64,000 nt of DNA, from the NCBI GenBank assembly GCA_001749745.1, contig JWTM01000101.1:1-64000 (forward strand). The letters run 5' to 3'. Below the pieces are notes generated by a model. That model did no database searches. It had not been told where the DNA came from and saw only the letters and a list, made by a program, of their open reading frames with translations. The position numbers were made by a program, and so were the translations under genes. The stretch comes from Candidatus Marispirochaeta associata. Lineage in GTDB: Bacteria; Spirochaetota; Spirochaetia; JC444; Marispirochaetaceae. Within the stretch, counting starts at the first letter, position 1, and the number at the start of each line of letters is the position of its first letter. This document shows, piece by piece, positions 4,111-33,500 of this stretch.

Positions 4111-4164
4111 GCCGGAGGCGCCCGGATAAATAACCACACTAGACGAACGGGAGAATTGAGAGAG

Positions 4165-5361
4165 ATGAAAATGGACGAGGTGAGAAGCGCGATTAGCAAA
4201 CTGGGGAGCCTTGCGACGGACAAGATGTTCCTGAACGACTTCCTGTTGACCTGGGAGAAGGACGACGACGAGATTAACGCGACCTTCCTGGTGGCCGACA
4301 TTTTACGGGGCATGCGGGAGGCGAATGTCTCGAGCAAGGTTTTCGATTCGGGACTGGGGATCAGTCTCTTTCGGGACAACTCGACTAGGACGCGCTTTTC
4401 TTATGCGTCGGCTTGTAACCTGCTGGGCCTTGAGGTTCAGGACCTGGACGAGGGGAAGAGTCAGATCGCCCACGGCGAGACGGTGCGGGAGACGGCCAAC
4501 ATGATTAGCTTCATGGCCGACGTGATCGGGATTCGGGACGATATGTACATCGGCAAGGGGAACGCCTACATGCGCGAGGTGGCCAAGGCGGTGGAAGAGG
4601 GGCACAAGGACGGCGTACTGGAGCAGCGGCCGACTTTGGTGAACCTGCAGTGCGATATTGATCATCCGACTCAGTCGATGTCCGATGCGCTGCACCTGAT
4701 CAACCACTTCGGCGGCGTGGATCAGCTGAAGGGCAAGAAGATTGCCATGACCTGGGCCTATAGCCCGAGTTACGGGAAGCCCCTCTCGGTACCCCAGGGG
4801 ATCATCGGCCTGATGACCCGCTTCGGGGCCGAGGTGAGCCTGGCCCATCCCGAAGGCTACGAGGTAATGCCCGAGGTGGAAGAGGTGGCCAAGAAGAACG
4901 CTGCCGCGTCCGGCGGAAGTTTTAGCAAGGTGAACAGCATGGCCGAGGCCTTCAAGGGTGCCGACGTGGTCTACCCCAAGAGCTGGGCCCCCTTTGCGGC
5001 GATGGAGAAGCGGACCGAGCTCTACGGCAACCGCGACGAGGCCGGGATCAAGGCCCTGGAGAAGGAGCTTTTGGCCCAGAACGCGAAGCACACCGATTGG
5101 GAGTGCACCGAAGAGCTGATGGCATCCACGAAAGACGGGAAGGCGATGTATATGCACTGTCTGCCGGCGGATATTACCGACGTGAGCTGCAAGCAGGGCG
5201 AGGTCGCGGCGAGCGTCTTTGATCGCTACCGGGTGCCCCTCTACAAGGAGGCGAGCTACAAACCTTACATTATCGCGGCGATGATCTTCTTGAGCAAGTT
5301 CGATAATCCGGCGGCGAAGCTGGATGAACTTCTTAAGGCGGGGACGAAGCGGATTAAGTAG
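4165..5361 (+). CDS. ygeW: YgeW-type knotted carbamoyltransferase
   Basis: A 398-residue protein of the aspartate/ornithine carbamoyltransferase superfamily. The carbamoyl-phosphate motif appears as FRDNSTRTRFS (about residues 69-79), with DIDHPTQSMSD (about 167) and HCLPADI (about 331) in the order expected. Length and the wording around these motifs fit YgeW rather than ArgF or PyrB. YgeW-type enzymes belong to the knotted carbamoyltransferases; their physiological substrate is not settled, and the gene is known as part of a conserved anaerobic purine/urate breakdown cluster with xdhD, ygfK, ssnA and ygeXY. Only xdhD, ygfM and ygeW are in view here. The ATG at 4165 is preferred over TTG at 4156; a GGGAG at 4149-4153 precedes it. 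A clear terminator follows. Confidence 0.88.
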   Translation: MKMDEVRSAISKLGSLATDKMFLNDFLLTWEKDDDEINATFLVADILRGMREANVSSKVFDSGLGISLFRDNSTRTRFSYASACNLLGLEVQDLDEGKSQIAHGETVRETANMISFMADVIGIRDDMYIGKGNAYMREVAKAVEEGHKDGVLEQRPTLVNLQCDIDHPTQSMSDALHLINHFGGVDQLKGKKIAMTWAYSPSYGKPLSVPQGIIGLMTRFGAEVSLAHPEGYEVMPEVEEVAKKNAAASGGSFSKVNSMAEAFKGADVVYPKSWAPFAAMEKRTELYGNRDEAGIKALEKELLAQNAKHTDWECTEELMASTKDGKAMYMHCLPADITDVSCKQGEVAASVFDRYRVPLYKEASYKPYIIAAMIFLSKFDNPAAKLDELLKAGTKRIK

Positions 5362-5400
5362 GACCGTAGAAGACCGACCACGGAAACACGGAAAACTGAG

Positions 5401-5445
5401 AACAGGATGGGGAGGATGTTAGTATCCGCTCTGTCCTGTTTTTTT
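5401..5445 (+). terminator. Rho-independent terminator after ygeW
   Basis: AACAGGA (5401-5407) pairs with TCCTGTT (5434-5440), with an inner GGAT/ATCC helix (5414-5417 with 5424-5427), followed by a T-run to 5445. The left arm has the same wording (AACAGGATGGGGAGGAT) as the minisatellite that begins a few bases later, so the array may have grown out of this arm. Confidence 0.75.
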
Positions 5446-5458
5446 GTGCCTGAAAGTA

Positions 5459-5967
5459 AGGGAACAGGATGGGAAGGATAGGAACAGGATGGGGAGGATG
5501 GGTAGGATAGGAACAGGATGGGGAGGATGGGAAGGATGGGGAGGATGGGGAGGGTTGGAACGGGATGGGAAGGATGGGAAGGATGGGAAGGATGGGGAGG
5601 ATGGGGAGGATGCGGGAGGATGCGGGAACAGGATGGGGAAGATGGGAAGGATGGGAAGGATGGGGAAGATGGGAAGGATGGGAAGGATGGGAAGGATGGG
5701 AAGGATGGGAAGGATGGGGAGGATGGGGAGGATGGGAAGGATGGGGAGGATGGGAACAGGATGGGGAAGATGGGAACAGGATGGGAAGGATGGGGAGGAT
5801 GGGAACAGGATGGGAACAGGATGGGGAGGATTGGGAAGGGTTGGAACAGGATGGGGAGGATGGGAAGGATGGGGAAGATGCGGTACAAGATGGGGAGGAT
5901 GGGAAGGATGGGGAGGATGGGGAGGATGGGAACAGGATGAGGAGGATAGGAAGGATGGGAAGGATGA
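5459..5967. repeat. Purine-rich 9-bp minisatellite, left block
   Basis: About 510 bases built from units of GGGAAGGAT and GGGGAGGAT (9 bp), interrupted irregularly by AACAGGATGGG variants and a few odd units (GCGGGAGGAT, GGGTTGGAAC). Because 9 is a multiple of three the array stays open in several frames on both strands (MGRMGR, WEGWEGWGG, KDGEDG; and PSHPPHP, ILPILPI on the other strand); these look like consequences of the repeat, not genes. G-tracts of three to four with 5-6-base loops recur dozens of times, matching the usual G-quadruplex pattern on the + strand. The block ends exactly where the GxxExxY gene stops. Confidence 0.93.
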
Positions 5968-6351
5968 TTAGGATTGGGTATTGTATTGATCAAGATAGAG
6001 GCGTCTGATTTCAAGCCTCGGGTTTCCAAAATTGATTAGAAGTCCTGTAGGACAATGGGTTGCTTTCAAGTAGTTAATCACTTGGGCGGAGTGTACCGAG
6101 ATCAATGCACTCACTGCCTTCAGTTCAACTACTACTATATCTTCAACAAGAAGATCAGCAATATAGAATCCAACTTCTGATTCTTTATAGGAAACTGTTA
6201 TGGGAAATTGCTGTTCAACGTGCAAGCCCCTTAAGTTCAATTCTGCCCTGAGGGAATTCTCATAAACTTTTTCTAGAAAACCGAAGCCTATGGTATTGAT
6301 TACCTCGAATGCGGAACCGATGATAACCTCGGTTATTTCTTGGTGCTCCAT
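5968..6351 (-). CDS. GxxExxY protein (PDDEXK nuclease-like fold)
   Basis: A 127-residue protein whose namesake motif is GFLEKVY at residues 24-30 (G24, E27, Y30). Downstream it has D66 in IADLLV, E76-L-K78 in VVVELKA and Q90-x3-Y94, the D...ExK...QxxxY layout of PD-(D/E)XK nuclease-like domains, so the catalytic residues appear to be present. No biological role has been settled for the family to my knowledge. The gene is bracketed by two blocks of the same purine-rich minisatellite in the same orientation, and its stop codon lies at the edge of the left block. Its A+T content and codon choice (many A/T-ending codons) differ from neighbouring genes, suggesting transfer. No good RBS precedes the ATG at 6351; a TATACC lies 5 bases upstream on its strand. 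Confidence 0.85.
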   Translation of the reverse strand: MEHQEITEVIIGSAFEVINTIGFGFLEKVYENSLRAELNLRGLHVEQQFPITVSYKESEVGFYIADLLVEDIVVVELKAVSALISVHSAQVINYLKATHCPTGLLINFGNPRLEIRRLYLDQYNTQS

Positions 6352-6418
6352 GAATGGTATAGCAGTCTAAGAACCGTCTTGCTTCATGCTTTGATAAAAA
6401 AATGAGAATAGAAGAAAC

Positions 6419-6587
6419 AAGATGGGGAGGATGAGGAACAGGATGGGGAGGATGGGAAGGATGGGAAGGATGGGGAAGGATGGGAAGGATGGGGTACAAG
6501 ATGGGGAGGGTGGGAAGGATGGTGAGGATGCGGAACAGGATGGGAACAGGATGGGAACAGGATGGGAACAGGATGGGGAGGATGGGG
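6419..6587. repeat. Purine-rich 9-bp minisatellite, right block
   Basis: About 170 bases of the same GGGAAGGAT/GGGGAGGAT units, ending in four tandem AACAGGATGGG units (about 6534-6575). It has the same strand orientation as the left block, so the GxxExxY gene sits between direct repeats. It lies upstream of that gene and downstream of the stop of the large lipoprotein gene (6612). Confidence 0.92.
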
Positions 6588-6611
6588 CCTGAAGCTATTG
6601 TCCGTTTGCGT

Positions 6612-9600
6612 CTATGGCGCCGTAATAATCAGGCTGTAGGGTTCTCCCGGTGAGTTATTTTTAGCCGGTGCTGTGTCGTTGTTAAGATATGCATAGACCT
6701 CAATGTAATAGGTCGAATTAGGTACCACGGCTACGCTGAGCACAGGCTCCATATTGATGCTAGTTGTAATTGAAAAATCAAGCAGATCCGTATTCTCATC
6801 GTAGACATAGAGATCCAAATCATCAAATCCGGCAGCCCAGGTCAGGTCTATTTCGAAGGTTGTCAATCCTGGATCAGCACCTGTCCGGACCACGAACATG
6901 TCCCGCTTGGCGAACTCGTCAATCTCACCGGTAATGTTGATACCGTCGCCGCTGTTGAATTTCAGGTAGTACTCAGACGCTGATCCAAAGGAGTTGTCTA
7001 TAGCGGTAGTTCCGGGAGTTTCAGTTTTGGGAGCGGGGTCCCAATAATAGAGGGCCGGAGTTACGAGCACGTTGTTTCCGGTATCTTTATCGTCTGGAGC
7101 TGATACTTGAATGATATAGTAGTGCATCCCAGGGGCTCCGGGAAGGGTGTCGTCGAAGTTGATGGGCGCGCTGCTGGCCCCGGCGTTCAGTGCCGGCAAG
7201 GTTCCTTGGGAGAGGACGGTGGTGTCTCCGGCGTCAAGATACTCATCGGCGGAGATATAGATTTTCCACGAGAGGGTAAAGATCCCGTCCTGTCCGTTCG
7301 CCTCACGGATCGTGAAGTTAGGAGTCCCGCCTCCCAGCGCGGATAGGGTTTCGCCGAGATTTCCGCCGTAGCGGATCGCGTCCAGGTCGGGAGAGTCGAT
7401 CACATAGTCCGGCGGAAGCCTGACTTCGATGGTAGCGGCGGAGACCCCGACGTCGTTGCGATTGGTTTCGTCGGTGGCGTCAACCTCGACGATAATGTAA
7501 AAGTTCCCGCTTAAGTTCGGCCAGAAGCCGTTAATCGGAATATCGACCGCACTTCCCCCGGCCGGGAGGCCTCCGGAAACTGTGCCGCTGCCGATGACCG
7601 TGTCGCCGCCGAGGCTGGTGTCGGTCGAGGCATAGGCTGTCCAGGTAATATCGACCCCGCCGGCGCCGCCGACATTGGCGATGGAAAAGGTCTCGGAAAC
7701 AGCGCTCTCTGCGGTAACCAGGGGGATTTCGGTGCTGATACTGCTGACGACATAGTCCGGCGTCGGGGCAATAGGATCGGTAATCGAGAAGCTCCCGCCG
7801 ATGCCGAAGTTGTTGGTGGTATCGGTCTCATCGGCGGCCTGCACCCTGGCGATCAGATAGTAGGTTCCGGCGGCGGTCCAGTTACCGCCGACCAGGTCGC
7901 CGTCGATGGTGATGGCGCCGCTGTTTCCCCCAGCGGCGAGACCGCCGACGATACTGCCGGCGTCGATCAGGGTGTCGCCGTTGTCGTAGACTGCGTTGGT
8001 GGAACGGTAGATGTACCAGTTTAGGGTGCTGCTGCCGGCATCGCCTCCCTGGTTGCTGATGATAAAGCTGTCATTAATCGGGTCGCCGACCTGAGCCGCA
8101 CCGCCCGCCGGAACTGTCGTCACAAGGTAGTCGATGTCGAGGGAGACAGACTGAACTGCAAATGCGGCGCTGGCCAGCCACTCATCCGCTGTAGTTTCGT
8201 CGTCGGCACTCTCCCGCACGATCAGGTAGCGGGTGCCGGCTGTTTCGGGCCATGTGGCGGTGATTGCAATCGTCGTCTCGTCAGGACCGCCGGCAGCCGC
8301 ATCGTCCCCGTCGAGCCCGCCGGCGACGGATCCGCTGTCTATGAGGAGGTCCACACCCGGATCGTAGACATTATCCGTCGAAAGATAGACATACCAATTC
8401 AGGGATGCGCTTCCGGCGTCGGCACCGCTGTTGTGGAGGGTAAAGCTCTCGCTGATTGCGCTGCCCGCGTTGGGCGTCGGATCGCCTGCGGTAATCGAGG
8501 AAACCCCGTATTCGATATTGGGAAGGGAGATCGTATGGGGACCGCTCTGTTGTTGGTCGTTGACGCCGTTGACATCGTCACCAGAGTAGAGGCGAACTAG
8601 CACATAGTAGCTGCCCGGGCTCGTCGGCCAATTGCCGCTTATGGTTTGTGGTGTGGAGAAGGCGCCGCCGGCGATGTCGGCAGTGATTACCCCGGAGGCC
8701 AGTACGGGGTCGGAGCCTGAATTGATGACCGTATCGAGAGAGGCGTAGGCGGTCCAGTAGATTGTATCGGTACCGGGATCGGAGGAGATGTTTTCGATTT
8801 GAAAGTCGGCGCTCACCGCCGACCCAACTAAGGCCGGCGTCCCGGTTACATTGATGGCCGGAATGCGGTAATCCACCGCCGGGTCGGCTACGGTCACGGC
8901 CGCGCTGACGCCTATATCTCCGGCGGTCTGTTCATCCGAAGCTGTCTCCGTAACGATAAGGTACCAGGTGCCAGCGGTCGTCGGCCAGCTGCCGGATACG
9001 GCGATACCGGTATTGCTCGCACCACCACCCAAGCCCGGCTCGATGCCTGAGTCGATCGGCGTATCCAAATTGGTATCGAGGGTCATGTCGGCCGAAAGGT
9101 AGGCGGTCCAGTAGACGTCTGCTGTCCCGGCGTCGGTGCCTGAGTTCTGCAGATCGAAGCTCTCATTCAGGGTGCTGCCGGTAAGTACGGCGGCTCCCGG
9201 ATCGGATACCGCCGGTATAACGTATTCGATGTCGAGTGGTCCGCTGCCGGAAACAGTCGTCTGGCTTGCGGTTGTACTCCGGTTGTTTCCGGTCGTATTG
9301 TCGTCCAGGGTTTCGATCTCGATAATCAGATAATAGTCTCCCGCGGCAGCGGGCCAGGTTCCGGAGAATATTACGCTGGTGCCGCTCGAGGCGGTGAGTT
9401 GCGGCTCGCTTCCGGAATCGATGACGAAATCCTGAGGTCCTAGAATGGTGTTGGCCGAGGCATAGACGCTCCATGCGACAGGGTATCCTCCGTCTGCGGT
9501 CCCGATATTGTCGAGGGTGAAGTCCCCGTCTATAGTGCTGCTGGACAGGTTGGTGCTGACCAGGTTGCTGGCCGTGCCTACCACATAGTCTACCGTGGTC

Positions 9601-11045
9601 GAGAGCGGTGTGGTCGAGACATTGACGGTAGCTGTGTCGGTGATCGAGTAGACTGTATCCGTTACTGTGACGATGTCAGTTCCGGCGTTATCTCCGGCGG
9701 TGTAGATATTACCGGCCATTCCGGGATTGCTGCTGCCAGTGGTTGTGATCGCATAGGTGTAGGTGCCCGAGCCGCCGGAGGTATCGAAGGTGATCTGCTG
9801 TCCGGCATAGAGATCGATTAACGGCGGTGTCATCGTCAGCGGCGTGTAGACGTCGACCTGAGCCGCCGATTGGCTCTGATTGTCGGCGGTCGCCAGATCG
9901 TCGGCGGCGGCTACATCGGCGAGGAGGTAGTAGTCTCCCGCCACCGAAGGCCAGGTGCCGCTGATCGCCACCGGTGTCGAAGAGCCGGCGCCGGTGCCGC
10001 CTAGGATGGTACCGAAGTCGACGATGAAGTCGCTCCCGCCGATGTTTGTATCCGTGGAAGCGTAGATCCGCCAGGTAAGGTCCTCGCTTCCTGCGGCACT
10101 TCCGTTATTATCGATATTGAAATCGGCGGTGAAGGCCGTGCTAATTTGAGCGGTGGCCGCCGGGGCGACATTGATGATCGCCGTTGGAGCATAGTCGACG
10201 TTGGTTACCACCGGCGCGGCGACGACAGTTACCACTGCCGGGGCTGGGGATCGGCCGTCGTAGCCGTCGGTAAGGGTAATCTGGTCTGTTCCGGGATTGG
10301 GGCCGGCGGTGTAGCTATAACTTGCCCCGCCTCCGATACCGGTTAGACTGCCGGAACCGTTGGTCGTTACCGCATAAGAGAAGGGCCCGTCGCCGCCCAC
10401 CGCGGCGAACTCGACTGTTTGGCCGGTATAGACCGTGATTGTCTGGGGATTGAGACTCAAGGGTTTAGCGACGACCGTGACAGTAGTCGTTGCCGTATCG
10501 AGGGCACTGTCGGTAACCCGTACCGTGTCGGTTCCGGCCAGGTTTCCGGCGGTGTAGTTTGCTCCCGTAAACGATCCGCCGCTGTTGTTTGTAGGAATGT
10601 CGTAGGTGTAGCCGGCTGTGCCGCCGATACCGCTGAAGGTGAGACTTCCGCCGGTATAGACGGTTTGTGCCGTCGGGCTGATTCCTAGTCCGAGCGTGCC
10701 GGAGTCGATGGTGTAAACCGCCTCCACCTTGTTCCCGGCGTCGTCGCTGATTCGAATCCGTGTGGTTTCGGCGCTAGTTGGGGCCGTGTAGATATTTCCA
10801 ATGATGGATCCGGTACCTGAAACTACAGTATACGTGTATGGAGGAATGCCGCCGGAGACATCCAAGGTAAGCGAAGAATTGATCAATAGTACTGTCGAGG
10901 AAGGTGAAACAGTCAGAGCCTTCCCGTCCGGGCCGTCGACAATATCCTCGAGGGTGAAGGGGTCCTGGCAAGCAGAGAACAGAATCAACGCGCTTAGAAG
11001 GAGAATAGAGAATAAACGCCCTGTATTCTGTCTATTATCAGTCAT
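6612..11045 (-). CDS. Giant surface lipoprotein: Ig-like repeats, eight CARDB-like repeats, C-terminal PPC-like domain
   Basis: A 1477-residue predicted lipoprotein: hydrophobic leader and lipobox LFSAC with C26. Four Ig-like units sharing L-x-P-x6-VYTG...GG...YTA...GTD...VTD occupy about residues 43-275 plus one more after the first CARDB unit. Eight CARDB-like units of about 110-120 residues follow, each with WxxYxSxD, an I-xSG turn, GxWPxxAGxYYLI and a DE/DDxxxxN end. The last 120 residues resemble a bacterial pre-peptidase C-terminal (PPC) domain (DDLDLYVYDEN, YYIEVYAY). CARDB and PPC domains are usually extracellular adhesion or glycan-contact modules, so a cell-surface adhesin or scaffold is inferred. 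It follows the beta-barrel gene by only 9 bases on the same strand, suggesting export or anchoring as a pair. No enzymatic domain is recognised. Confidence 0.85.
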   Translation of the reverse strand: MTDNRQNTGRLFSILLLSALILFSACQDPFTLEDIVDGPDGKALTVSPSSTVLLINSSLTLDVSGGIPPYTYTVVSGTGSIIGNIYTAPTSAETTRIRISDDAGNKVEAVYTIDSGTLGLGISPTAQTVYTGGSLTFSGIGGTAGYTYDIPTNNSGGSFTGANYTAGNLAGTDTVRVTDSALDTATTTVTVVAKPLSLNPQTITVYTGQTVEFAAVGGDGPFSYAVTTNGSGSLTGIGGGASYSYTAGPNPGTDQITLTDGYDGRSPAPAVVTVVAAPVVTNVDYAPTAIINVAPAATAQISTAFTADFNIDNNGSAAGSEDLTWRIYASTDTNIGGSDFIVDFGTILGGTGAGSSTPVAISGTWPSVAGDYYLLADVAAADDLATADNQSQSAAQVDVYTPLTMTPPLIDLYAGQQITFDTSGGSGTYTYAITTTGSSNPGMAGNIYTAGDNAGTDIVTVTDTVYSITDTATVNVSTTPLSTTVDYVVGTASNLVSTNLSSSTIDGDFTLDNIGTADGGYPVAWSVYASANTILGPQDFVIDSGSEPQLTASSGTSVIFSGTWPAAAGDYYLIIEIETLDDNTTGNNRSTTASQTTVSGSGPLDIEYVIPAVSDPGAAVLTGSTLNESFDLQNSGTDAGTADVYWTAYLSADMTLDTNLDTPIDSGIEPGLGGGASNTGIAVSGSWPTTAGTWYLIVTETASDEQTAGDIGVSAAVTVADPAVDYRIPAINVTGTPALVGSAVSADFQIENISSDPGTDTIYWTAYASLDTVINSGSDPVLASGVITADIAGGAFSTPQTISGNWPTSPGSYYVLVRLYSGDDVNGVNDQQQSGPHTISLPNIEYGVSSITAGDPTPNAGSAISESFTLHNSGADAGSASLNWYVYLSTDNVYDPGVDLLIDSGSVAGGLDGDDAAAGGPDETTIAITATWPETAGTRYLIVRESADDETTADEWLASAAFAVQSVSLDIDYLVTTVPAGGAAQVGDPINDSFIISNQGGDAGSSTLNWYIYRSTNAVYDNGDTLIDAGSIVGGLAAGGNSGAITIDGDLVGGNWTAAGTYYLIARVQAADETDTTNNFGIGGSFSITDPIAPTPDYVVSSISTEIPLVTAESAVSETFSIANVGGAGGVDITWTAYASTDTSLGGDTVIGSGTVSGGLPAGGSAVDIPINGFWPNLSGNFYIIVEVDATDETNRNDVGVSAATIEVRLPPDYVIDSPDLDAIRYGGNLGETLSALGGGTPNFTIREANGQDGIFTLSWKIYISADEYLDAGDTTVLSQGTLPALNAGASSAPINFDDTLPGAPGMHYYIIQVSAPDDKDTGNNVLVTPALYYWDPAPKTETPGTTAIDNSFGSASEYYLKFNSGDGINITGEIDEFAKRDMFVVRTGADPGLTTFEIDLTWAAGFDDLDLYVYDENTDLLDFSITTSINMEPVLSVAVVPNSTYYIEVYAYLNNDTAPAKNNSPGEPYSLIITAP

Positions 11046-30517: not shown

Positions 30518-33500
30518 ATGCCGAAACGGAAACCGAAAGACCCGGAGCGCAGTCCCGACTTGCCCCACAACTGGATAAGTCGGCGCATCGCCTCGCTTTC
30601 ATCCATGATCTACAGCGATCCGTACGACATACCTGAATGGCGCTACCGGAGCGCCCGCCTTGCGGGACCCGGAACCTACGAGGGGCTCGAAGCCGACTGG
30701 GGAAGTATCAGTCTCGGCGAGTACTGGGGCGGGGAGGATGCAACCGCCTTCTTCGAGACCGAGCTGACCGTCCCGGAGAGCCATGCCGGCGACGATATAG
30801 TGCTCGATCTCTTCCTCGACGGAGGGGAGGCGCAGCTCTCGGTCGACGGGCGGCCCTACCAGGGCCTCGACTGGCACCGGAGTATCATCCCTTTTGGTGA
30901 GTTTGCCCAAGCCGGCCGGAAGCTGAAGCTCGAGATCGAGGCCTTTATTATCAACTACCCCTACGACGACCGGCGAAAGGACGCCCGGGAGCTCCACCGC
31001 TTCGAACGGGCTCGCTTGCTGCGTCGGGACGCCGCGCTCGAGGCGGCCTACTACGATCTCGCCTTTCTCTTCGACGCCTATATGGACTGCTGGGAGAACG
31101 ACGGCGATCCGGAGCTCGAAGCCTTCTATCTCCGCCACCTGGAGCGGGTCTGCCGCATGCTGCCGCCGGAAATCTCCTCACGGGAGGAGATGCGCCGCGC
31201 CGCCGCTGAGGTTCGTAGCTCTCTGGCCGATGAGCTTTTTGCAAACCCGGCTTACCGCCGGGACGGGACGATCAGCATCTGCGGTCATTCTCATCTCGAT
31301 ATTGTCTATCTCTGGCCCATTAAAGAGACCTTTCGTAAAAACGTCCGCACGGCGACCAATATGCTCAGCCTGATGCGGGAGTATCCGGACTATAAATTCA
31401 GCTGTAGCCAGCCCTATCTCTACGAGAAACTGAAGGAGATGTATCCCTCGGTCTATGAAGAGATTAAAGAACGCATTGCCGAAGGTCGCTGGGAGGCGAT
31501 CGGCGGAATGTACGTCGAACCCGACGGCAACCTGTTGGGGCCGGAGAGCCTGGTGCGCCAGATCCTCTTCGGGAAGCGCTTCTTTAGGCGTGAGTTCGGC
31601 GTCGAGACCGAGACCTGCTGGCTGCCGGATGTCTTCGGGGTTATGTACACCTTGCCCCAGATCTTAAAGAAAAGCGGTATCAAGTACTTCTGCACCAATA
31701 AACTCAATATCTGGAACGACGTCAACGAGTTCCCCCACGATACCTTCCGCTGGCGCGGTCCCGACGGCAGCGAGGTGCTGGTCCATTTCCCGACCACCCA
31801 CTTCGGTCAGGACTACAGGGTTGCCAACCTGCAGCGGAGTTGGAGCGACTTTCGTGAGAAGCAGACCGTGGGGGAGAATCTCTTTATCTACGGCTGGGCC
31901 GACGGGGGCGGCGGACCGACCCGGGAGATGGTCGAAGGAAGCATCCGGACCGACAAGCTCCCCGGACTGCCGGGGGCCAAAATCGAGTTTGCCGAGGAGT
32001 ACTTTCGCCGGGCCGAAACAAAATGGGAACAGCTTGCCGTCTGGGATGATGAGCTCTACCTCGAGGCCCATCGCGGTACTATTACCACCAAGGCCGATCT
32101 AAAGCGGCAGAACCGGCAGGCGGAGCTCCTCTACCGGGACGCCGAGATCCTGAGCTCCCTGGCTCTTCTTTTCGGCGGTGAGCGGGAGCAAGAGCGCCTG
32201 AACGAGGGCTGGAAGCGGGTCATGCTGAACCAGTTCCACGACACCCTTCCCGGCACCCACGCGCCGGCCGGTGTTCCGGACATCAAGCGGGATTACGAGG
32301 AGGCTTTTAAGATCGGCTATGACGTGCGGGATAGGGCGCTGGCCTGTCTCGCGTCTCGAAGCGGCGCCAAGCCGGGACTGGTGGCGGCCAACACCCTCTC
32401 CTGGGAGCGGGCGGATCTTCTGCTTCTCCCAGGAGATTTCGACGGCGAAGCCCTCGTCGACGACGACGAAGCGCCGATCCCGGTGCAGCGTTACGGGGAA
32501 GAGGCCTATGCCCGGATTCCGGCGTTGCCCTCCCTCGGGTGGCGTACGCTACATGCCCAAACAACGGCCCCGGATACCGAGCGGTCGACGGCAAGCTTCG
32601 ATGGGACCTTGATCGAAACACCCTTCTATCGCATCGAACTGAACAGTGCGGGCGAGTTCGGCCGGCTCTATGATAAGGAAGAGGAGCGAGAGGTACTTTC
32701 CGGACCGGGAAACCAGTTCCAGATCTTCGAAGACGACCCGGGCTATAAGTTCAGCGCCTGGGATGTGGCCTATCATCTAGAGGAGTTCCGCTATACCCCG
32801 GAGCTGACATCCCCCTGGAGCCTCGCGGCCAACGGCCCCCACTTCGCGGTCCTTAAGGCCTCTTGGAAGGTGCTCGACTCGACCATCGAGCAGGAGATAT
32901 GGCTCTACTCCGAGGATAGGCGTATCGATTTCAGGACTCGGGCCGACTGGCATAACCACCGCAAGATGTGGAAGGTCGCCTTCCCCCTGAATGTACGTAC
33001 CAAGACGGCGGTCTACGACCTCCCCTTCGGCCATATCGAACGGCCGACCACCCGCAATACCAGCTGGGAGCAGGCGAAGTTCGAAGTCTGCGGTCATAAG
33101 TGGGCCGATCTCTCCGAGGGGGATTACGGTGTGGCCCTGATGAACGACTGCAAGTACGGCTATGATGCCAGGGAGAACCTCCTGCGCCTCTCGCTGCTCC
33201 GCAGTCCGGTGCGTCCCGATCCGGGAAGCGACGAGGGTGAACATCTCTTTACCTATTCCCTGCTTCCCCACCGGGGAGGCTGGCGGGATGCTCAGGTGAC
33301 CCGCCGGGCCTACGAACTCAACAGCCCCGTCCTTGCGGCGAGCCTACGAGAAGAGGGCGGCTGCAGCGTGCCGGAGAGCTTCTCTCTGGCTCGACCAGAA
33401 TCCGGAAGCCTCATTGTAGAGGCGGTGAAACAGCCGGAGGAGGGAGAGGGGCTGATCCTCCGCAGCTTCGACAGCCTCGGAACCCGGGGCAGGATTCGCT

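Follow-up and report, generated by a model that had tools for sequence, protein, structure and literature searches.

The locus examined here raises the question of why a small gene for a predicted nuclease of the GxxExxY family should lie between two blocks of one and the same 9-bp repeat. It is found in the window, a stretch of 64,000 nucleotides (positions 1 to 64,000 of contig JWTM01000101.1) from Candidatus Marispirochaeta associata. A first-pass annotation had proposed that gene and repeats form a cassette, in which either the repeats are the target that brought in the gene, or the nuclease acts on them by cutting or protecting G-rich DNA. As argued below, the locus is likely to be a minimal mobile element with a predicted PD-(D/E)XK nuclease, for which the element's own repeat ends would be the sites of recognition and cutting.

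The GxxExxY gene and its minisatellites

The gene occupies positions 5968..6351 on the minus strand and encodes a GxxExxY / PDDEXK_3 protein of 127 amino acids, the element's predicted nuclease, as judged from the open reading frame, profile matches and an AlphaFold model. The protein scores 139.3 bits against Pfam PDDEXK_3 (PF13366; cut-off 22) and 141.6 bits against TIGR04256 GxxExxY (cut-off 35), and residues G24, E27, Y30, D66, E76, K78, Q90 and Y94 are invariant across 20 homologues; the full D...ExK...QxxxY layout originally reported is present. The model has a pLDDT of 92.8, and the top matches in fold searches with it include PD-(D/E)XK nucleases, which does not thereby exclude other folds. 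No sequence relative was found in the PDB at an E-value of 1, no Pfam family other than PDDEXK_3 at 0.001 or better, and no transposase family by the Pfam and TIGR04256 profile searches, while a search with the PADLOC anti-phage defence models gave 0 families. To our knowledge, no catalytic activity has been described for the GxxExxY family.

Two genes neighbour this one. A convergent carbamoyltransferase gene, annotated at 4156..5361 on the plus strand and named ygeW in the first-pass annotation, lies on the gene-downstream side. On the gene-upstream side there is a co-oriented open reading frame of 1477 amino acids (6612..11045, minus strand), in which Pfam detects no family at an E-value of 0.001. 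The window gene is indeed richer in A/T than both: its GC content is 40.6% (third positions 40.6%), as against 59.0% (82.1%) for ygeW and 58.3% (68.1%) for the 6612-11045 frame.

The left minisatellite (5466..5966, plus strand), on the gene-downstream side, consists of GGGRAGGAT mixed with AACAGGAT units and adjoins the stop codon of the gene, and the right minisatellite (6416..6587, plus strand), on the gene-upstream side, has the GGGRAGGAT unit and starts near AACAAGATGGGGAGGATG. Tandem Repeats Finder (TRF) reports 52.7 copies of period 9 at 5466-5966 and 16.8 copies of period 9 at 6421-6587, its remaining row across the 64 kb being a single 1.9-copy repeat at 32112. There are 32 copies of GGGRAGGAT in 5401-5967 and 8 in 6416-6587, the opposite strand having 0 in these intervals; the rest of the window adds 2 copies and 1 in reverse. 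Since the copies in both blocks lie on one strand only, the blocks are co-oriented, and the description of the gene as enclosed by two such 9-bp arrays, of about 53 and about 17 units, stands. The flanks match each other with a score of 221 in direct and 12 in inverted orientation; of 200 control intervals taken from this window, 0 pass any of the three layout thresholds described below. The left block had also been said to begin in the ygeW terminator, and a terminator-like hairpin predicted by folding (5398..5450, plus strand; -25 kcal/mol, z -5.8, with a U run at its end) does have the repeat (AACAGGATGGGGAGGAT) as one of its arms.

The gene is not tied to the GGGRAGGAT unit

The source genome is a metagenome-assembled genome of 5.25 Mb with a listed contamination of 11%. 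It holds 12 PF13366 matches, including one fragment, one with an internal stop and two that are identical on two contigs. For 11 of the 12, the contig carries no GGGRAGGAT doublet at all, the sole exception being the match on the window contig. Conversely, gene-less doublets occur on two further contigs only, C538 and C549, neither of which has a PF13366 match; C549 ends about 0.5 kb past its array, and the sequence beyond that is missing. Among 60 relatives, the source genome counted in, there is one further doublet, in the genus mate G001, and its contig, too, has no PF13366 match. As 11 of the 12 matches lack the unit and two contigs present the reverse case, the link of the gene is not to GGGRAGGAT specifically, and the cassette idea, taken literally, fails. 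In a phylogenetic tree, in which not all forks are supported, seven other copies from the source genome cluster away from the window gene.

The orthologues of ygeW in G001 and G002 are followed by other short-period repeats of GCAGAGG type, with no GxxExxY gene (L078, 2940-3160; L079, 2716-3040). Inspection by eye also revealed a GGGRAGGAT-type array near a contig end in L029 (3204-3424), with an amidohydrolase-like gene before it and an IS110-like reading frame after it.

Related genes lie between inverted short-period arms

The best 80 of 419 relatives, chosen among GTDB representative genomes by similarity to the window protein, span many phyla as well as archaea; 77 of the 80 loci were testable, three having been dropped for short flanks. 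In the main test, 300-nt flanks were compared by local alignment, with a threshold at the 99th percentile of 1266 controls (intervals and reading frames from the same loci). Because of this definition about 13 of the 1266 controls lie above the threshold by construction, not having been counted singly, and Fisher values that use 13/1266 rest on it. An inverted match above threshold was found at 61 of the 77 loci, and in 521 of 5852 mispairings of flanks from different loci. The median score was 43 with a flank's own partner versus 19 with a partner from a different locus, and of 77 true partners, 27 ranked first and 49 fourth or better. A first version of the test, in which the gene was extended to the next in-frame stop, gave 52/77; the main test starts at the end of the protein match because this extension swallowed the right arm in some loci.

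When the flanks were lengthened to 400 nt and scored for three layouts, at least one layout exceeded its threshold at 67 of 77 loci (63 inverted, 13 direct, 7 hairpin), versus 13 of 456 controls, and ten loci showed no repeat layout above threshold. Co-oriented blocks like those of the window are thus the minority form (direct, 13/77). By eye, the relatives' genes can be seen between repeats such as AACCACGGATGCACACGGATGAACACGGAT and its near-exact reverse complement. Together, these comparisons show that, within the subfamily of the window gene, most members sampled form arm-gene-arm units. The link is one to short-period repeats generally, with a locus-specific sequence, and takes the form of inverted arms in most of this subfamily. 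The cassette proposed at the outset survives in that gene plus repeats recurs as a unit, but not in its tie to GGGRAGGAT.

Copies from the same genus and class, tested after the 80-locus set, fit less well. The genus set comprises 28 of the 35 PF13366 matches in G000-G002, near-duplicates (C47 of G000 and one G002 copy) and short fragments having been omitted; inverted flanks were found for 3, direct flanks for 8 and any layout for 10 of the 28, which exceeds the controls (Fisher 5e-8) and is far from universal. In the class set, made up of 18 loci with strong matches minus L033, L035 and L038 (short flanks), 3 of 15 showed any repeat layout.

Many of these genus and class copies have a structured leader in place of repeat arms. 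A conserved leader, some 150 nt long and with a ribosome site at its end (CTCCTTCAGG ... TCAAGG ... CCTTGA ... CCTGAAGGAGG-ATG), precedes GxxExxY copies other than the window's, namely L019-L025, L027, L083, L084, L086, L092 and L095 in G000-G002, and L034, L039, L056 and L057. Alignment of 18 leader sequences gives a consensus fold with two-sided change in 8 of 12 pairs. By eye, the leader is absent from the window copy. A known RNA family was rejected for the 11 loci scanned with Rfam (L019-L025 and L027 among them), where nothing reached the gathering score except two tRNAs.

Gene-less arms, shared elements and empty sites

Arms also occur without the gene. The pattern CRCRGATNNACRCRGAT has 457 matches in 12 genomes, its reversed control 0, and PF13366 has 43 matches there (fragments included); the genomes were picked from the 80 loci, most of them for their CACAGAT- or CGCAGAT-like arms, and the counts are not a fair sample. 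Adjacent matches 10 nt apart belong to one arm. In G288, all 38 matches fall into 21 clusters, of which 8 are left-right and 0 right-left, the others having right arms only (7) or left arms only (6). For G294, among the 41 listed of 79 matches, 6 of 20 clusters are of mixed strand, and all of these start left-right, so that in the two genomes together all 14 mixed-strand clusters start left then right (for G294, among the matches listed).

This excess of arm matches over genes in the 12 chosen genomes would be expected if the repeats were an independent, dispersed host family of REP-like hairpins and minisatellites, into which the GxxExxY gene inserts or among which it is tolerated without acting on them. 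The other short-period repeats without a gene at the ygeW site in G001 and G002 fit such a family too, as do the GGGRAGGAT doublets on source-genome contigs lacking a PF13366 match. Yet flanks of the same locus match better than flanks of different loci (median 43 vs 19), and arm similarity tracks protein similarity across phyla (Spearman 0.25 for pairs labelled as different phyla, with labels assigned from record titles; permutation p 0.001), although this correlation may reflect common descent rather than recognition.

Arm and gene are, moreover, shared together by an archaeon and a planctomycete, which counts against the host family as well. Methanoperedens L119 and Brocadiaceae L149 have in common 393 bp (81%), comprising the left arm plus the gene, and a 43-bp piece of the right arm; beyond the element, the two loci, of 10.3 and 7.7 kb, match only in two stretches of some 30 bp that contain arm sequence. 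The archaeon and the planctomycete thus have the element in common and its surroundings not. An independent host family is, on this evidence, an unlikely account of the arms.

Orthologous empty sites, the search for which had been suggested earlier, do exist. At the metF site, the gene is present in G001 and G002 with inverted repeats related to the window unit on both sides. With a threshold of 29, the inverted score is 43 for the orthologue L088, which passes, its related repeats GAAACAAAGATGGACAGGATGGGAAGGATA and partner forming an inverted pair, and 26 for L082, where the pair is weaker. In G000, the site has no gene and a lone AATCCTTCCCATCCTGT repeat piece, and in G003 a spacer of about 15 nt only. 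Similarly, at a Treponema/Spirochaetales junction the element is present in L103, L104 and L105, while in G135 the stop and start codons overlap directly; the protein piece downstream of the junction in G135 shares 93% identity with its L105 counterpart. In nine further loci, no element was seen. Comparison of filled with empty sites by eye revealed no target-site duplication or exact ends at the metF and Treponema sites, where intergenic divergence blurs the ends.

In L150 and L154, the matched protein stretches are identical, and the element region is 96% identical, as against 85-86% for the two longest flanking matches. One supported group in the tree, many other forks of which are unresolved, unites Bacteroidota L134, SAR324 L167, Acidobacteriota L133 and Chloroflexota L140, and all four have CAGGATT-like units by eye. 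Taken together, a few cases support the view that the element is mobile.

At certain sites the element is present in two or more related lineages with flanks in common (L111/L121, L122/L137/L153 and L129/L176), for which reason mobility would have to be slow or rare. By eye, elements in different lineages follow the same neighbour in L129, L147 and L176, in L111 and L121, and in L122, L137 and L153, these neighbours being leuS-, carA/carB- and miaB-like; L147 was left out of the flank comparison. Carriage as phage cargo was discarded, as 0 of 50,697 phage records matched the window protein and a pattern-based scan of a viral collection yielded one contig. Among plasmid records, 8 of 72,556 matched.

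Anatomy and setting of the arms

The arms at the 61 loci have a median length of 35 nt, which corresponds to about three units of 9-10 nt, the left arm is purine-rich in 54 of them, and the GxxExxY element as a whole has a median length of 503 nt. Compared with shuffles, 54 sufficiently long arms show periods of 10 (z 19.6), 20 (z 10.4) and 9 (z 6.9). A spacing of about one helical turn would suit a protein that makes recurrent contacts along the same side of the DNA. G accounts for 568 of 2670 letters in the left arms of the 61 loci; a nuclease specific for G-rich or G-quadruplex DNA was accordingly rejected as a general principle, and the earlier idea that the enzyme cuts or protects G-rich DNA fails as a general rule.

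The left arm starts no more than 30 nt past the upstream stop codon in 29 of 50 loci, and the window copy obeys this rule relative to the 6612-11045 frame, some 25 nt separating the stop codon of that frame from the right array. Of 52 upstream neighbours, 47 are co-oriented, against a background of 197/268 (Fisher p 0.005); of 49 downstream neighbours, 40 are, with no difference from background (p 0.15). By eye, the left arm seems to enter the start of the reading frame in L149 and L138, with the ATG inside arm units. In L081, L108, L150 and L154, the element directly follows what we take by eye to be an HsdS-like C-terminus, with an HsdR-like start next in some; this setting spans Spirochaetota, Bacteroidota and Pseudomonadota.

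A sense orientation downstream of co-oriented genes is also what would be expected of an RNA-level element like the intervening sequence (IVS) of 23S rRNA, in which the arms would pair in the transcript with the gene in the loop, and RNase III would trim operon mRNAs. Plan and size resemble those of the Coxiella IVS as far as the available part of its description goes (PMC4990558), and genes of the IVS protein family (PF05635) in Spirochaetota have inverted flanks above the main-test threshold at 14 of 30 loci, with differing unit sequences. RNA pairing should, however, favour G.U, and the arm mismatches on the sense strand number 88 G.T and 88 A.C at the 61 loci; because the two are equal, there is no sign of kept wobble pairing. 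The window copy lacks inverted flanks altogether, and an Rfam scan of L009 (window 4501-7839) detected no rRNA there. The arms thus look like DNA signals rather than an RNA stem, and an RNA-level element is very unlikely.

Growth of repeats beside the gene

At the 80 loci, the share of short tandem repeats is 5.2% within 400 nt of the gene and 1.2% elsewhere. In SAR324 L167 (1-2345), 293 copies of an 8-bp unit lie just upstream of the gene and reach the contig end, and a right-arm piece recurs in several additional copies in L150 and fewer times in L154. The window is therefore an extreme but not a lone case of repeat expansion. In L162 and L182, from NC10 bacteria, the left arm and its spacer were also observed several times in a row before the gene, as diverged tandem copies.

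That the window holds a plain minisatellite, grown by slippage in a purine-rich spacer beside an unrelated, horizontally acquired gene that is there by chance, would suit the low GC of the gene and the occurrence of the repeat unit on contigs that lack PF13366 matches, but this already weakened account is improbable in the face of the tandem-repeat enrichment beside the gene and of the inverted related repeats of the metF-site orthologue L088 (weaker in L082).

A candidate mechanism

The best reading of the locus is that of a REPtron-like minimal element with a predicted PD-(D/E)XK nuclease, the arms of which would have grown into co-oriented minisatellites in the window. Each unit of 9-10 nt would serve as one contact for the nuclease, with the contacts in phase on the same side of the helix. 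If the arms, perhaps extruded as cruciforms, were nicked or cut, excision, copying or insertion could begin, and we infer from sequence comparison both arm cleavage and transposition by the GxxExxY protein. Repair of breaks within short repeats might then let the arms grow, shrink or flip, so that cutting by the element's own nuclease together with repair inside the arms would yield minisatellite growth. Because the window copy has some 53 and 17 units, all pointing one way, it has probably been rearranged, and it has perhaps lost its mobility.

Tentatively, GxxExxY elements might represent the single-gene members of an undescribed class of bacterial and archaeal mobile elements. The stand-alone PD-(D/E)XK nuclease of such an element would recognise helically phased arms of 9-10 bp units, spread gene-less hairpins through operon spacers and drive minisatellite growth, with the four-helix IVS family as a second, unrelated gene on the same kind of arms.

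GxxExxY proteins are widespread, with no described function found in the searchable literature, and the matched, 10-nt-phased arms offer a concrete hypothesis as to their substrate. The mobile-element reading would also supply a source for some short-period intergenic repeats of these environmental genomes (CACAGATGAA-, CACGGATT-, CAGGATTAA- and GGGRAGGAT-like), and a route other than slippage for the growth of bacterial minisatellites.

Comparison with known systems

Miniature inverted-repeat transposable elements (MITEs) and insertion sequences have terminal inverted repeats and gene-less derivatives. GxxExxY elements likewise have terminal inverted arms and gene-less forms, but neither a transposase family nor a target-site duplication was seen. 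From the PD-(D/E)XK nucleases Cas4, lambda exonuclease and Hjc, the GxxExxY protein differs in standing alone with 127 amino acids, and a common fold does not show a common function. The first-pass annotation knew of no system built in this way, and in agreement with it, no description of a GxxExxY gene-plus-repeat unit was found among the papers listed from the searchable literature, a body of mainly open-access papers that includes no preprints.

According to the available part of its description, the IVS of Coxiella 23S rRNA is 428 nt long, has terminal inverted repeats and one small reading frame (S23p), and is called selfish (PMC4990558). On that description, the GxxExxY element is alike in size (median 503 vs 428 nt), inverted ends and single small reading frame. 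The window element, however, is intergenic between two reading frames and encodes a PDDEXK_3 protein rather than S23p (PF05635), and the mismatches of GxxExxY arms do not favour an RNA stem. The element resembles the 23S rRNA IVS in plan, and is not an IVS. Genes of PF05635 (23S rRNA IVP, four-helix) in Spirochaetota (L183-L212) were themselves observed by eye to be flanked by short-period repeats of about 7-9 nt.

The closest parallel is offered by REPtrons (TnpA-REP/RAYT) as portrayed in the accessible portion of a published account, in which a small enzyme gene is bordered by inverted REP palindromes, many gene-less copies of the repeat lie in intergenic regions, and local multiplication of repeats near the gene is suggested for two Marinomonas REPtrons (PMC8266576). 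On that portrayal, the GxxExxY subfamily shares the small enzyme gene and the local growth. Inverted arms border the gene at 61/77 loci of the subfamily, the window copy having direct flanks only, and gene-less arms abound in the 12 chosen genomes of relatives, the source genome having just two further contigs with GGGRAGGAT doublets. The subfamily differs from REPtrons in that its enzyme is a predicted PD-(D/E)XK nuclease instead of an HUH Y1 transposase, that its arms are tandem units of 9-10 nt instead of a GTAG-tagged palindrome, and that it is often multi-copy with its arm layout spread across many phyla and archaea. By this comparison, the GxxExxY element would work most like a REPtron, and yet is not one.
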